Assembly: GCF_024584805.1 (NCBI RefSeq)
Contig: NZ_CP075715.1
Location: 62,001 to 126,000 of the forward strand
Reading direction: 5' to 3'
DNA: 64,000 nucleotides
From: Streptomyces sp. FIT100
Lineage (GTDB): Bacteria > Actinomycetota > Actinomycetes > Streptomycetales > Streptomycetaceae
A program made the translations under genes and the position numbers. This document shows, piece by piece, positions 45,834-49,756 of this stretch. The first letter of the stretch is position 1, and each line of letters starts with the position of its first letter. The notes beneath the pieces are model-generated. The model made no database searches. It was not told the DNA's origin and saw only the letters and a list, made by a program, of their open reading frames with translations.

Positions 45834-45892
45834 CTAGGGCGTGTTTCAGAAGTGGATCTTGATGTGTCAAGATCCACCGAAACGCACCCTAG
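45834..45892 (-). mobile_element. 59-bp IS remnant: exact fusion of both ends of the IS at 48721-49666
   Basis: The first 44 bases equal the right end of the intact IS in reverse complement (CTAGGGCGTGTTTCAGAAGT and the palindrome GTGGATCTTGA-tgtg-TCAAGATCCAC at 45852-45877). The last 15 (CGAAACGCACCCTAG) equal its left end in reverse complement. CTAG is present at both borders. Orientation is opposite to the intact element. Its right CTAG supplies the TAG stop codon of the methyltransferase gene. Confidence 0.92.
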
Positions 45893-46581
45893 TCGGGCAG
45901 GCGCGAAGCGAGGATCATCCCGGTGGCGTACTGGAGCAGAGCGCAGGCGACTCGGGAGTCCTCAAGCAGTTGCTCGGGGTTGCGCCCGTCCAAGGGTGGG
46001 CGGGTCGCGCCCTTGCCCCAGTACGGGTTCATGTCATCGATCAGGAGCTGCCCGCCGGGCTTCAGTGCGGTGATGGCACCATCGAGCAGGGAGGCTTTCA
46101 GCTGACCGGGGACGTCCAGGAAGATCAGGTCGTAGCTCCCCAGGGTCGGGAGGGCCTCCTTGGCGTCGCTGACCATCAGAGTCACCCAGTCAGGCCAGCT
46201 CGCGCCTGACGCGAGGGCAGACTTCTTCGGGTCGACCTCGACGCTGACGACTTCGGCGTCGGTGCGGCTGTGCAGGCCGTGCACGATCCATGCGAGGCCA
46301 ACGCCAACTCCAGTGCCGAGTTCGAGAATGCGTCCGCCGATGGGGGTCGCCGCCGCTAGGACGGACATGAGCGCGCCCACCTCGGGGCAGCATGATTTCG
46401 CAAATCCGATTCGCTGGGCCCGGGCGTAGGCGGCGTCGACCGTGGGCGGCACCTGCAGGGCGGTTCGCGCACCCAGGCGCCGTTTCATGCTCTCGACCTC
46501 AGCCGTCGACATCTCGCGGCCGAACGTTAGGGTGACCAGGCACCGTGTGCCTGATTCCTCCGCGGTGCCCGTTCGCTCCAT
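45889..46581 (-). CDS. SAM-dependent methyltransferase with RiPP-leader-like N-terminus
   Basis: 230 aa. Class I Rossmann methyltransferase: motif I ILELGTGVGVG (85-95), acidic VVSVEVDPKK (111-120), YDLIFLDVPGQ (150-160) and LKPGGQLLIDD (173-183), as in O-methyltransferase/Methyltransf_24 proteins. Residues 1-45 are extra and align without gaps to the start of the divergent 67-aa peptide; Phe20 coincides in both, and Arg22, Glu23, Glu28, Val29, Met32, Ala38 and Ala41 are identical. This supports the ATG at 46581; an upstream ATG at 46623 is possible. The methyl acceptor is unknown, but the context suggests the neighbouring peptide. The stop codon lies in the IS remnant, so the C-terminus may be slightly changed. 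Confidence 0.8.
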   Translation of the reverse strand: MERTGTAEESGTRCLVTLTFGREMSTAEVESMKRRLGARTALQVPPTVDAAYARAQRIGFAKSCCPEVGALMSVLAAATPIGGRILELGTGVGVGLAWIVHGLHSRTDAEVVSVEVDPKKSALASGASWPDWVTLMVSDAKEALPTLGSYDLIFLDVPGQLKASLLDGAITALKPGGQLLIDDMNPYWGKGATRPPLDGRNPEQLLEDSRVACALLQYATGMILASRLPD

Positions 46582-46812
46582 GACATGGCTCCTCGGTCTG
46601 GATGCCCGCCGCGCGGAATGCACCGTCCGTCAGGCTGCGCACCTCTGCTACACGAACGCCCGTTCAGGTGACTTTCCGGCACGCCGCGAGGAACTCGCGC
46701 AGCCGTTCGGGCATGAATGATGTTCGCACGGCTGACGTTGTCTCGCGATTCGAACCGTATCCAGAAACTGGGGTTGGCTTTTCAGTCCGACTCCGGAGAA
46801 GGGCGCCAAGCC
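46582..46812. promoter_or_regulatory. Divergent promoter region of the RiPP-like cassette
   Basis: 231 bases between the methyltransferase and the peptide gene starts; it must drive both directions. Less GC-rich than neighbours. No clear palindrome was found by eye. GAAGGG (46798-46803) is the ribosome binding site of the peptide gene. Confidence 0.55.
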
Positions 46813-47016
46813 ATGGCAGCTTCCAGTAATCCCGGGAACCGCGAACCCGAATCCCGCGTGATCCTCGAATTCGACCGCGAGGTGACCGATGAGGAGGTCA
46901 AGGAGATGCAGGCCAAGCACAACGCGACCTCTGCCTTCGTGGAGGCTGGCGGCCATCACCACCACCACGACGACGACGAGCCCGACGTCGTGGACATGGG
47001 AGAGGTCGACCAGTAG
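46813..47016 (+). CDS. Putative RiPP precursor peptide with Gly-Gly-His5-Asp3 core
   Basis: 67 aa. Residues 1-45 form an acidic leader-like region (SRVILEFDREVTDEEVKEMQ, predicted strand then helix). Then AGG at 45-47, five consecutive His (48-52), Asp53-55 and the tail EPDVVDMGEVDQ. A double-Gly before the core is the usual processing signal of peptide leaders. The His codons are mixed (CAT then CAC). The ATG at 46813 has a spaced GAAGGG; a longer frame starts at 46717 but lacks a good site. Downstream come a hairpin and the HExxH hydroxylase gene, same strand. No Cys, Ser or Thr in the core, so lanthionine chemistry is excluded; His/Asp hydroxylation or methylation is more likely. Function inferred from architecture only. 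Confidence 0.7.
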   Translation: MAASSNPGNREPESRVILEFDREVTDEEVKEMQAKHNATSAFVEAGGHHHHHDDDEPDVVDMGEVDQ

Positions 47017-47030
47017 CACCCTATGCTCGC

Positions 47031-47053
47031 ACCGCACCGTTCCTCGGTGCGGT
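47031..47053 (+). terminator. Perfect 9-bp stem-loop between precursor and hydroxylase genes
   Basis: ACCGCACCG (47031-47039), loop TTCCT, CGGTGCGGT (47045-47053). It starts 14 bases after the peptide stop. Such leaky terminators between a precursor gene and its enzyme genes keep precursor mRNA in excess in many RiPP operons. Confidence 0.6.
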
Positions 47054-47137
47054 CGAGCGGCGTTGGGCGAGCTACCGCGGGGCGACACACGAACGACGCT
47101 CAGGTGCGCCGGGGCGGTAGAGGCAGAAAGGCGAGAG

Positions 47138-48706
47138 ATGGACTTGAATGCATTCGACACCGCGCTGTCGCGCAAGCCGTTCGGCGACAGCGCCTATGTG
47201 CGTGAACAGATGCACCTCACGTTCAAACGTCGGCTCGAGAGCCTCGGTATCTCGGTTCAGGCTGCTCGCCATCTGCTGACGGCACTTCAGCAGGCAACGC
47301 CACAGACCGAATACCGCACTCTTGGGGATCCGCTTCTGCGCAGGGCTGTCCAACATCTACTGACTCCCGAGGTCGTCGGGCCACGGCGGAACTTGCTGTC
47401 CCCGCAGCTGTCAGCCCAGGTGATCGAAGCCGTCGCGCAGCACGTGGAGACCGGCGCTGCCAACGGACCGCTGCAGGGCGATTCCGCCGACGCGCAATGG
47501 CTCGGCGATCCGTCCAGCACTCCCTGGATCTGGTCCCCTGGGCAGGACCGTGGCTTTGTCGGGGAGACGTTCACGCGCTTCATCGAGCAACAGTTCGGGG
47601 GCGGGCTGGCGCAACCGAGCGAGAGTGATCTCGCGGTGCTACGCCAGGGCTTCCAACTCCTGGACGAACTCCTGCCGCTGACCTCTCGCGGAGCCCTGAG
47701 CCACACTCACCTGATCGGGCTCACCCCCGGTACAGACACGTGGGCGGGCAAGGCGTCGTCGTCTCAGTTCACCGTAGTCGGCATCGTCTTCCTGAACCGC
47801 AAGCTCCTCCAGAACCCCTGGTGGGTGGCCGAGCACCTGCTCCACGAGGCACTCCATCAGAAGCTGTACGACTTCCGCCACGCCCATTCATTGCTGGCCC
47901 GCGATCTCGACGACTCCCCTAACGCTCCCGTCGATGTCAGTCGCGTCGTGTCGCTGTGGAACGTCCCGGGCCTCGACGGGAACAACCGGTGGGACGTCCA
48001 CCGCGCCATGGCGGCTTTCCACGTCTACGTCCACCTGGCTCTGTTGTGCTCCCTCGCGGAACAATACGCTTCACGGCTGCGGGACATCTACGGTCCGCTG
48101 GACGCCCCAAAGCCCATGACCGAGAGCCGCAAGGCCTTCGAACGGGCCCACTACCTGGCCGAGAGTCTGCGGGCCGAGTGCTGGGACGAACTCGGCCTCG
48201 CGGGCCGACGCATGGTCGACTGGCTCAACGCTGTCCTGGATGCCATGGACCAGGCACCTCCCCCGGCGGGCTCGTTCCTCCACCTCATCCTCGACCGCTA
48301 CCTCAAGGAAGCACGCCGACTTCGTGGGGCAACGGTCACCGACGATCTGGCGACCACACTGGCAGCTCTCGGGCGGTCCGAAGCCGAGACCTTCCGCGAG
48401 GTCCTGTCCGCCATCGGTGCCAAGGACCACCTCGACACCTTCACGACCGAACCGGCGCCACGGCCCGCCCATGACCACCAGACGGCCTTCGCGCAACAGC
48501 GCCACCACATCGCCGACACTCTCCTGCGGCTCGCGCCGAACGGCTACAGCCTGGCCTCCCTGTGCCGGCCCCCCGGACCGTCCGCAGACGAGATGGTGCG
48601 CGCCATGGTGGAGGCCTCCAGCCGAGAGCTGGCAACAACCTCGGCGGCAATCCCCACAGACCGTGACCGCCCCCATCACATCCCGAGCCCTTGGCATGGC
48701 CACTGA
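47138..48706 (+). CDS. HExxH-motif protein, probable alpha-ketoglutarate-type peptide beta-hydroxylase
   Basis: 522 aa from the ATG after AAAGGCGAG. H236-E-A-L-H240 in WWVAEHLLHEALHQKLYDF, and downstream NNRWDVHRAMAAFHVYVHL supplies further His candidates (H288, H295, H299) for the third iron ligand and an Arg for the co-substrate. This combination (HExxH, then Arg and HVY/H about 50-60 residues on, in a ~500-aa all-helical protein) is that of the 'HEXXH motif domain' RiPP-associated family, now known to include Fe/alpha-KG peptide beta-hydroxylases rather than proteases. The gene follows the His/Asp-rich peptide gene, its likely substrate. The C-terminus ends HIPSPWHGH just before the IS. 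Confidence 0.75.
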   Translation: MDLNAFDTALSRKPFGDSAYVREQMHLTFKRRLESLGISVQAARHLLTALQQATPQTEYRTLGDPLLRRAVQHLLTPEVVGPRRNLLSPQLSAQVIEAVAQHVETGAANGPLQGDSADAQWLGDPSSTPWIWSPGQDRGFVGETFTRFIEQQFGGGLAQPSESDLAVLRQGFQLLDELLPLTSRGALSHTHLIGLTPGTDTWAGKASSSQFTVVGIVFLNRKLLQNPWWVAEHLLHEALHQKLYDFRHAHSLLARDLDDSPNAPVDVSRVVSLWNVPGLDGNNRWDVHRAMAAFHVYVHLALLCSLAEQYASRLRDIYGPLDAPKPMTESRKAFERAHYLAESLRAECWDELGLAGRRMVDWLNAVLDAMDQAPPPAGSFLHLILDRYLKEARRLRGATVTDDLATTLAALGRSEAETFREVLSAIGAKDHLDTFTTEPAPRPAHDHQTAFAQQRHHIADTLLRLAPNGYSLASLCRPPGPSADEMVRAMVEASSRELATTSAAIPTDRDRPHHIPSPWHGH

Positions 48707-48732
48707 ACCCCCGGCATCACCTAGGGTGCGTT

Positions 48733-48781
48733 TCGACCGTGCTGGTCACAGCCACTCGTTGATGGCTGCGACCAGCACGGT
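48733..48781. terminator. Long stem-loop in the IS left end
   Basis: CGACCGTGCTGGTC then CAGCC pairs with GGCTG then GACCAGCACGGTCG across a single mismatch and a short loop. It covers the transposase stop codon. It can act as a bidirectional terminator for both the HExxH gene and the transposase, shielding each from read-through. Confidence 0.65.
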
Positions 48782-49297
48782 CGCTTCGTAGCGGACGGCG
48801 AGCTTGTCGTATCTCGTGGCGACCGCGCGGTGGCGCTTGAGGCGATTGATTCCGCACTCCACCGCGTGGCGCTGCTTGTAGTCGTCCTTGTCGAACTTCG
48901 GTGGCCGGCCGCCCTGGGAACCGCGTTTCTTGCGGTTGGCGATCTGGTCGCGCTTCTCCGGGATTGCGCAGCGGATACCGCGTCTGTGCAGGTAGGCGCG
49001 GTTCGCGCGGGAGCCGTACGCCTTGTCGGCACGGACCTTGTCCGGGCGGGTGCGAGGGCGACCCGGTTCAAGCCGGGGCACCCGGATCCGGCCCAGGACC
49101 ACCTGGAACTGCGGGGAGTCGCCGCGCTGTCCGGCCGTGATGACCAGCGACATCAGCTTCTGGGCCTGCTCGACCGCCAGGTGGAGCTTGGTGGTCAGCC
49201 CGCCCCGGGAACGTCCGAGCCCGTGATCGTCGGGCTCGGTGAACACACCACCTGGCGACTCGATCTGCAGATCCCCTTTTGCGGGCACCGGCCGCAT
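48746..49297 (-). CDS. IS5-family transposase, C-terminal part (OrfB)
   Basis: Reads [19 protein letters not shown], then [20 protein letters not shown] (second catalytic Asp) and [24 protein letters not shown] (catalytic Glu with the Y-x-x-x-R-like context), the DDE part of the transposase. Frame is +1 relative to OrfA. The useful fusion point is the run AAAAGGGG (minus-strand sense; 49273-49280), where OrfA codons AAA AGG become AAA GGG; upstream residues of this frame are probably not translated on their own. Confidence 0.85.
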
Positions 49298-49619
49298 GCT
49301 GGTGGGCGCGGGCGATGGTCGAGTCCACCGAGACGTCCCAGGTGATCAGCCCCTCGGCGTCGGCCCGGGCCTGCAACTGCTCGAAGATACGGTGCCAGGT
49401 GCCGTCCCGCTGCCAACGCCGGAACAGGCCGTACACAGTCGCCCATGGGCCGTATCGCTCGGGTACGTCCCGCCAGGGAGCGCCAGCGCGGATACGCCCG
49501 CGTATGCCGTCTATCAACTGCCGCTTTGTGTGCACCGGTGGCCGTCCAGGCTTCTTGCCCACCGGGAGCAAGGGCTCCAGCTTCGCCCACTGTGCATTGG
49601 TCAGATCGTGCCGCCCCAC
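49068..49619 (-). CDS. IS5-family transposase, N-terminal part (OrfA)
   Basis: Starts [19 protein letters not shown] and continues [44 protein letters not shown] (helix-turn-helix part typical of IS5/IS427 transposases), then [23 protein letters not shown] with the first catalytic Asp. After the AAAAGGGG run the frame continues as unrelated Arg-rich sequence, so a +1 (or -2) frameshift into OrfB at that point would give a ~290-aa active enzyme. Confidence 0.88.
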
Positions 49620-49756
49620 GAAGTGGATCTTGACACATCAAGATCCACTTCTGAAACACGCCCTAGAGGGTGTCCGGCCCGGGGCCCGGCCGAGAGTCCG
49701 AGCCCCGACCTCGGCGGCGGCCGCACCGTGCAGCCGGCCGTTGCCGACCCGCGCTC

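Follow-up and report, generated by a model that had tools for sequence, protein, structure and literature searches.

Three adjacent genes, encoding a class I S-adenosylmethionine (SAM) methyltransferase (MT), a 67-residue precursor-like peptide and a 522-residue HExxH protein, were analyzed in a stretch of 64,000 nucleotides from Streptomyces sp. FIT100 (hereafter the window; bases 62001-126000 of the single 7,965,264-base contig, with the cassette near one end of that contig). A preliminary description of this DNA had located the three open reading frames (ORFs), and each was found where it had been placed (Table 1). The MT and peptide genes are divergent, with their 5' ends facing each other, and the GC content of the cassette is 66.2%, compared with 72.3% for the remaining window. 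Profile comparisons indicate that the N-terminal arm of the MT is homologous to the leader of the peptide, a point absent from the preliminary description which, along with fusion proteins devoid of the arm, sets this system apart.

Table 1. Positions of the genes, gene parts and hairpin of the cassette within the window
Feature	Position	Strand	Remarks
Class I SAM MT (P0002)	45889-46581	-	230 aa
MT N-terminal arm, residues 1-45	46447-46581	-	Homologous to precursor leader, as judged by hhalign, hidden Markov model (HMM) match and genome profile search
Precursor-like peptide (P0001)	46813-47016	+	67 aa; 14 relatives; 5' of HExxH gene in 8/8 intact loci
Conserved leader, peptide residues 1-44	46813-46944	+	Two alignments
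Predicted core/tail AGGHHHHHDDDEPDVVDMGEVDQ	46945-47013	+	His/Asp-rich across family
Hairpin right after peptide stop codon	47025-47058	+	Intergenic fold z -2.18; similar hairpin in 4/8 loci
HExxH protein, predicted alpha-ketoglutarate (alphaKG)-HExxH oxygenase fold (P0003)	47138-48706	+	522 aa
HEALH motif, residues 236-240 of HExxH protein	47843-47857	+	Conservation in 64 relatives
C-terminal helical region, HExxH residues 377-509	48266-48664	+	Helices in model; beyond 8S5F match

The precursor-like peptide

The peptide is not a chance ORF, because it has 14 relatives and because all eight intact loci, in seven of seven genomes and on one plasmid, have an ORF bearing this leader immediately 5' of the HExxH gene. 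The relatives were retrieved from 5.8 billion proteins, 13 of them at E <= 8.2e-13 and P0017 at 5e-3. The preliminary description had staked its proposal on conservation of the peptide next to HExxH proteins, and this is what was observed. The hallmarks of a ribosomally synthesized and post-translationally modified peptide (RiPP), namely a precursor gene with a conserved leader, a variable tail and a modifying enzyme alongside, were present in the eight intact loci. No Pfam or NCBIfam model matched the peptide; when a known leader family was sought, only PHROGs gave a match, at E 0.031, and the idea was dropped.

Tails were compared in 21 precursor sequences, including P0004 (one residue different from P0001) and P0011, which looks like P0005 read from a later start, judged by its tail and the size of its source contig. 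At least three Asp residues follow the leader in all 21 sequences and at least three His in 19, while Lys occurs in none. The segment GGHHHHHDDD (peptide residues 46-55) had been proposed as the core, but it is not invariant in the family: the His-Asp block is variable (HHHHHDDD, HHDHDH, DDHDHDH, DDDHCHHH), the tail of P0012 has no His and that of G054 only one. The multiplied part of the tail is instead an acid repeat, (V/I)(V/I)D(M/A)GE(V/L)D, present in 12 of the 21 tails (once in seven, twice in four and three times in one) and absent in nine. Similarly, the lack of Cys, Ser and Thr was correctly described for the window's own tail but does not extend to the family, in which Thr occurs in 11, Ser in four and Cys in one of the 21 tails. 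In P0017 (88 aa, from a 683-bp contig), the tail GGHHHHHDDDDTPDVIDMGEVDPDVIDMGEVDR follows an N-terminus unlike the leader, and, to judge from this sequence, the precursor tail may be able to move to a different leader.

A leader-like arm on the methyltransferase

The MT matched Pfam Methyltransf_24 (PF13578) with 40.9 bits, above the cut-off of 26.3, and gave matches under the cut-off to PF01596 (Methyltransf_3; 18.2 bits, cut-off 22) and PCMT (17.7 bits, cut-off 20.3); COMT/CCoAOMT-type O-methyltransferases head the structural matches of its predicted fold. Among the 120 relatives listed of 182 at E 1e-10, those of about 230 aa start with a segment like VTLTFDRELTDAEVE.LK...GA..ALRVP, whereas those of about 190 aa start right after it. 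Homology between this arm and the precursor leader is concluded from profile-profile, HMM and whole-genome profile matches, together with shuffled controls. Alignment of 16 precursor leaders with 33 full arms by hhalign gave a probability of 98.0 and an E value of 1.9e-13 over 42 columns, as against 0.3 for the MT core, at most 1.0 for five HExxH windows and at most 2.4 for 30 column-shuffled arms. A profile built from the 16 leaders, with no MT included, was run against 242 proteins (121 MT and 121 HExxH proteins), with E values scaled to a database of 100,000 sequences. At E <= 10 it gave 29 matches, all of them to MTs and all in the arm, comprising 26 of the 33 full arms and three shorter ones; 11 of the 29 were below 0.01, the best being 2.7e-7 (P0163), three of the matched MTs showed a second stretch elsewhere at E >1000, and none of 2420 shuffled controls matched. 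In addition, a search of the whole 8-Mb genome with a precursor profile returned only two matches at E <= 1, the precursor itself (6.6e-31) and the MT arm (0.157). Leader-like residues are kept in the arms of MTs that are just 41-50% identical to that of the window. The arm carries no His/Asp tail, and the C-terminus of the MT reads ..LASRLPD.

The occurrence of the arm was compared with that of HExxH proteins, of which 120 relatives are listed of 360 at E 1e-10. Equal longest-contig size was taken as a proxy for linkage, which is not a map, and P0224, for which no contig size is given, was left out. By this measure, a contig size in common with a listed HExxH protein was seen for 13 of the 37 listed MTs that have the arm in whole or in part, compared with 0 of 82 armless MTs; since armless MTs come from shorter contigs than armed ones, the comparison restricted to contigs of >=3500 bases (13 of 29 armed versus 0 of 31 armless) should be read beside it. 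When the 14 peptides are compared by the same proxy with 37 MTs and 56 HExxH proteins, 9 have a size in common with an MT and 4 with an HExxH protein. Moreover, 12 HExxH relatives among the 120 listed exceed 600 aa. In 11 of them an MT follows, joined at the point where an armless MT starts, so that all 11 HExxH-MT fusions are without the arm; the remaining one, P0101, is instead extended at its N-terminus. The fusions P0112 and P0113 are named from Paraburkholderia kirstenboschensis and Ramlibacter, and one of the two is annotated as tRNA 5-hydroxyuridine methyltransferase, an annotation that probably derives from its MT half. In the structural model of the MT, residues 4-25 form neither a strand nor a helix and residues 26-35 are helical, an arrangement that is no more than suggestive of a docking tag; sequence matches of the MT profile in the PDB start at position 51 or later. 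Because the arm accompanies the HExxH gene, because the fusions lack it and because of this model, a docking tag is the best guess for its role, and the armless fusions fit such a tag, as a covalently tied enzyme would need none.

The HExxH protein

In 64 relatives of the HExxH protein, H236 and H240 are invariant and E237 is conserved in at least 90%, and the predicted fold is that of solved HExxH oxygenases. A search of PDB sequences with the HExxH profile had returned one spurious homeobox match at 0.39, so that comparison of folds was required. The proposal that this protein is of the peptide beta-hydroxylase type is borne out to the extent that its modelled fold corresponds to that of a characterized alphaKG peptide beta-hydroxylase, and P0033, which is 52% identical to it, bears the name of the TIGR04267 family in NCBI. 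Asp and His are the sites given for this characterized enzyme in the available part of PMC12636437. The two top fold matches end at residues 371 and 384, and the helical region beyond the match to 8S5F is a candidate dock for the leader or the MT, an idea prompted by the model.

Two further HExxH proteins, both above the TIGR04267 cut-off, are encoded in the same genome (G000:C1:5423087-5423626 and G000:C1:1428364-1428762; L056 and L057), the former of which resembles the 22NU/22OB chain in sequence. Outside Streptomyces, an HExxH protein with 32% identity over 93% of the query was found in Nonomuraea gerenzanensis (L052:9650-11464), in a record that carries no gene annotation.

Distribution, mobility and expression signals

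Of the 392 genomes searched within the genus, six contain the peptide and 22 an HExxH match. The six close HExxH matches (E < 1e-140) are in the same six genomes as the peptide; the other 16 genomes and a second locus in G054 have distant matches (E 3e-23 to 3e-5). One more genome, G946, came from 394 genomes drawn from the family, which overlap in part with the genus draw, while draws of 394 genomes of the class (E 1e-20) and 396 of the phylum (E 1e-3) yielded the window's own genome only. The MT occurs in six of the seven cassette genomes, including G058, in which the HExxH frame is intact. The peptide, HExxH protein and MT, which had been proposed to form one system, are conserved together and in a constant order across loci.

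All three genes are also carried by a 290-kb linear plasmid of S. xanthophaeus, typed as mobilizable. The DNA shared with this plasmid (92.3% identity) starts in the window at position 45889, which is the final base of the MT gene, and does not continue beyond 48693. Comparison of six genomes by eye revealed no recurring neighbour gene besides the three, and among the 30 features annotated around the plasmid cassette there is none with the name of a transporter or peptidase. Because shared DNA ends at the cassette in the plasmid copy and no other neighbour recurs, the unit consists of three genes and is mobile.

Insertion sequence (IS) elements flank the cassette in the window. On the left, a 59-bp remnant (45834-45892) still has the two ends of an IS and, in its CTAG, contains the stop codon of the MT gene; on the right lies a full IS (48721-49666) with transposase-like frames at 48746-49619 (-). 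The 44-bp arms 45834-45877 and 49623-49666 are perfect inverted repeats. In Streptomyces sp. CNH099, fragments of the MT and HExxH genes are joined to each other next to a transposase-like frame (L002:1-1200); this stretch, which lacks the peptide, is a deletion remnant of the cassette. A phage origin was considered and rejected, as the HExxH protein had no match in 50,697 phage records and none of 92 pattern-matched stretches of viral contigs was confirmed. Likewise, a role as defence system was set aside, the only PADLOC match being that of the MT domain to mad2 (48.5 bits), which was taken as a generic MT match.

In the window, the plasmid, G038 and G058, the peptide stop codon is followed by a strong hairpin, which is missing in G054, G247, G374 and G946; the plasmid and G038 versions, compared by eye, differ by one paired change of A-T to G-C. 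It is possible that this hairpin acts as an attenuator or mRNA stabiliser. A scan of the window found no sigma-70-type promoter in 46560-47160. Pairs resembling TTGAC[CG]-N16/18-TA[CG][AG]TT were seen by eye 5' of the peptide in G058, G247 and G374 (L033, L034, L035).

Proposed mechanism and alternative explanations

Taken as a whole, the mobile cassette may be a RiPP-like system of three genes: leader and arm would dock in the same way, the HExxH enzyme would beta-hydroxylate His and Asp, and the MT would O-methylate the product. We give this reading an even chance of being right. The conserved leader of the precursor would serve as the recognition element and bind the HExxH enzyme, which would then beta-hydroxylate His and Asp residues of the acidic tail; the MT, held by its leader-like arm at the same kind of site, would O-methylate the new hydroxyls, methylation following hydroxylation. 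In the fused proteins, the covalent link between the two enzymes would take over the job of the arm. The hydroxylation and methylation chemistry of the preliminary description is plausible. More tentatively, and as a possibility that we would not yet favor, the arm may be a copy of the leader that docks on the hydroxylase, so that the substrate is handed over on a single platform, with fusion replacing the arm elsewhere; the product would be a metal-binding ribosomal peptide in which stretches of His and Asp are beta-hydroxylated and in part O-methylated. Chelation of a metal ion by the modified tail is a guess, for which beta-hydroxy-Asp and beta-hydroxy-His, described as established chelating groups of non-ribosomal metallophores in the part of PMC12971057 at hand, and bufferins, presented in an excerpt of PMC12452194 as modified ribosomal peptides able to serve metal homeostasis, offer parallels.

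Several observations weigh against this scheme. With 32.2 bits, the HExxH protein does not reach the NCBIfam TIGR04267 cut-off of 40. Two tails are poor in or devoid of His, as noted above. Of the 33 full arms, 7 escaped the leader profile at E 10, and the MT of the window by itself gave no better than 0.53. The MT was found nowhere in the genome of G946, which has the peptide and the HExxH protein, so that the MT is dispensable. No linked protease or exporter was found, with 0 of 30 annotated features around the plasmid cassette bearing a transporter or peptidase name; such genes are common in RiPP clusters, though not universal. Finally, no cyclophane-forming enzyme was identified here, and hydroxylation by ChlB is reported to need a preinstalled cyclophane (PMC12636437, available part).

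The alignments of the MT model raise a further objection, since in 46 of the 50 structural alignments listed the first aligned MT residue lies between 2 and 11 and the arm is at least partly paired with the N-terminal part of ordinary O-methyltransferases. The arm may therefore serve inside the MT. It could then be a structural part, such as a lid or dimer contact, related to the leader by duplication in either direction between the divergent genes, whose facing 5' ends fit such an event, and the HExxH step would be unchanged. This explanation is somewhat unlikely, as the MT relatives of about 190 aa and the 11 fusions manage without the arm, and the persistence of leader-like residues in such diverged arms also speaks against it. 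Alternatively, the peptide might be a small adaptor or metallochaperone whose leader unit docks on the HExxH protein and whose tail delivers iron or another metal, the two enzymes acting on another target. The His/Asp-rich tails in 19 of 21 sequences, the same interaction unit on the MT and the absence of a linked exporter or protease in the six genomes and the plasmid stretch would suit this role. The tail, however, varies and repeats its acid motif, like those precursors that carry several core units, and the alphaKG-HExxH enzymes described in the accessible parts of PMC12636437 and PMC13060819 act on a peptide encoded beside them, which makes an adaptor unlikely.

The chemistry itself might also differ. 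RiPP isoaspartyl methyltransferases that form aspartimide exist, and an MT of this kind would methylate the Asp carboxylates of the Asp-rich tail rather than new hydroxyls; the weak PCMT match points in this direction, but Methyltransf_24 matches better and COMT/CCoAOMT-type enzymes head the fold matches, so that this is quite improbable. For the HExxH motif, a zinc peptidase comes to mind, which would mature or degrade the peptide, and PflC, an alphaKG-HExxH enzyme, is stated in the available part of PMC12636437 to be able to hydrolyse a truncated substrate; because of the predicted fold, this reading is ranked low and is very improbable.

If docking of leader and arm at a common kind of site is correct, the cassette would bear on a broader question, as multi-enzyme RiPP pathways must gather their enzymes at one leader and the handover between them is mostly unexplained. 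It would provide a very small system for this question, in which a single peptide is served by two enzymes, one of which bears a copy of the leader, and in which the natural fusions act as control. No earlier case of a partner enzyme bearing a copy of the leader was found in a literature search that had poor coverage of subscription journals. The leader profile is also a handle for genome mining because it detects both the precursor and the partner enzyme. If the product does contain consecutive hydroxylated His and Asp residues, it would be a ribosomal peptide equipped with the chelating groups that non-ribosomal siderophores use.

Comparison with known systems

The closest known proteins are the alphaKG-HExxH peptide beta-hydroxylases, including the HExxH domain of ChlB (8S5F), SjiH (22OB), PflC/PosC and PesO, which are represented by the model TIGR04267; for SjiH, a literature search brought up only unrelated papers. 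Compared with them, the HExxH protein of the cassette falls below the cut-off of that model and has an extra C-terminal helical region, and an O-methyltransferase is paired with or fused to it, whereas no radical SAM or multinuclear non-heme iron-dependent oxidative enzyme (MNIO) partner was identified here. A distant HExxH relative (27-28% identity) occurs within a RiPP cluster in the FDLD-lanthipeptide clusters of S. goshikiensis and S. globosus plasmids, which, unlike the present cassette, have genes for a lanthipeptide dehydratase, cyclase and transporter, and whose leader is different. Such distant relatives in plasmid FDLD-lanthipeptide clusters were seen at L053:7872-9440 and L054:7647-9077, with a sulfotransferase adjacent.

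The MT shares its predicted fold with COMT/CCoAOMT/TrmR-type O-methyltransferases, from which its leader-homologous N-terminal arm distinguishes it. Borosins are comparable in that a methyltransferase shares sequence with its presumed substrate; however, the borosin methyltransferase carries its own core, while the shared part here is the N-terminal leader and the MT chain contains no core. A likeness to bufferins and to non-ribosomal siderophores with beta-hydroxy-Asp or beta-hydroxy-His lies in the suggested chelation of metal by a modified peptide (PMC12452194 and PMC12971057, each in part), which for the present system is only an idea; bufferins are MNIO- and Cys-based and the siderophores are non-ribosomal, unlike this cassette. 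On the best reading, the system belongs with the known alphaKG-HExxH RiPP-like clusters, and what is new is the leader-like arm of the MT, which is absent where the two enzymes are fused.

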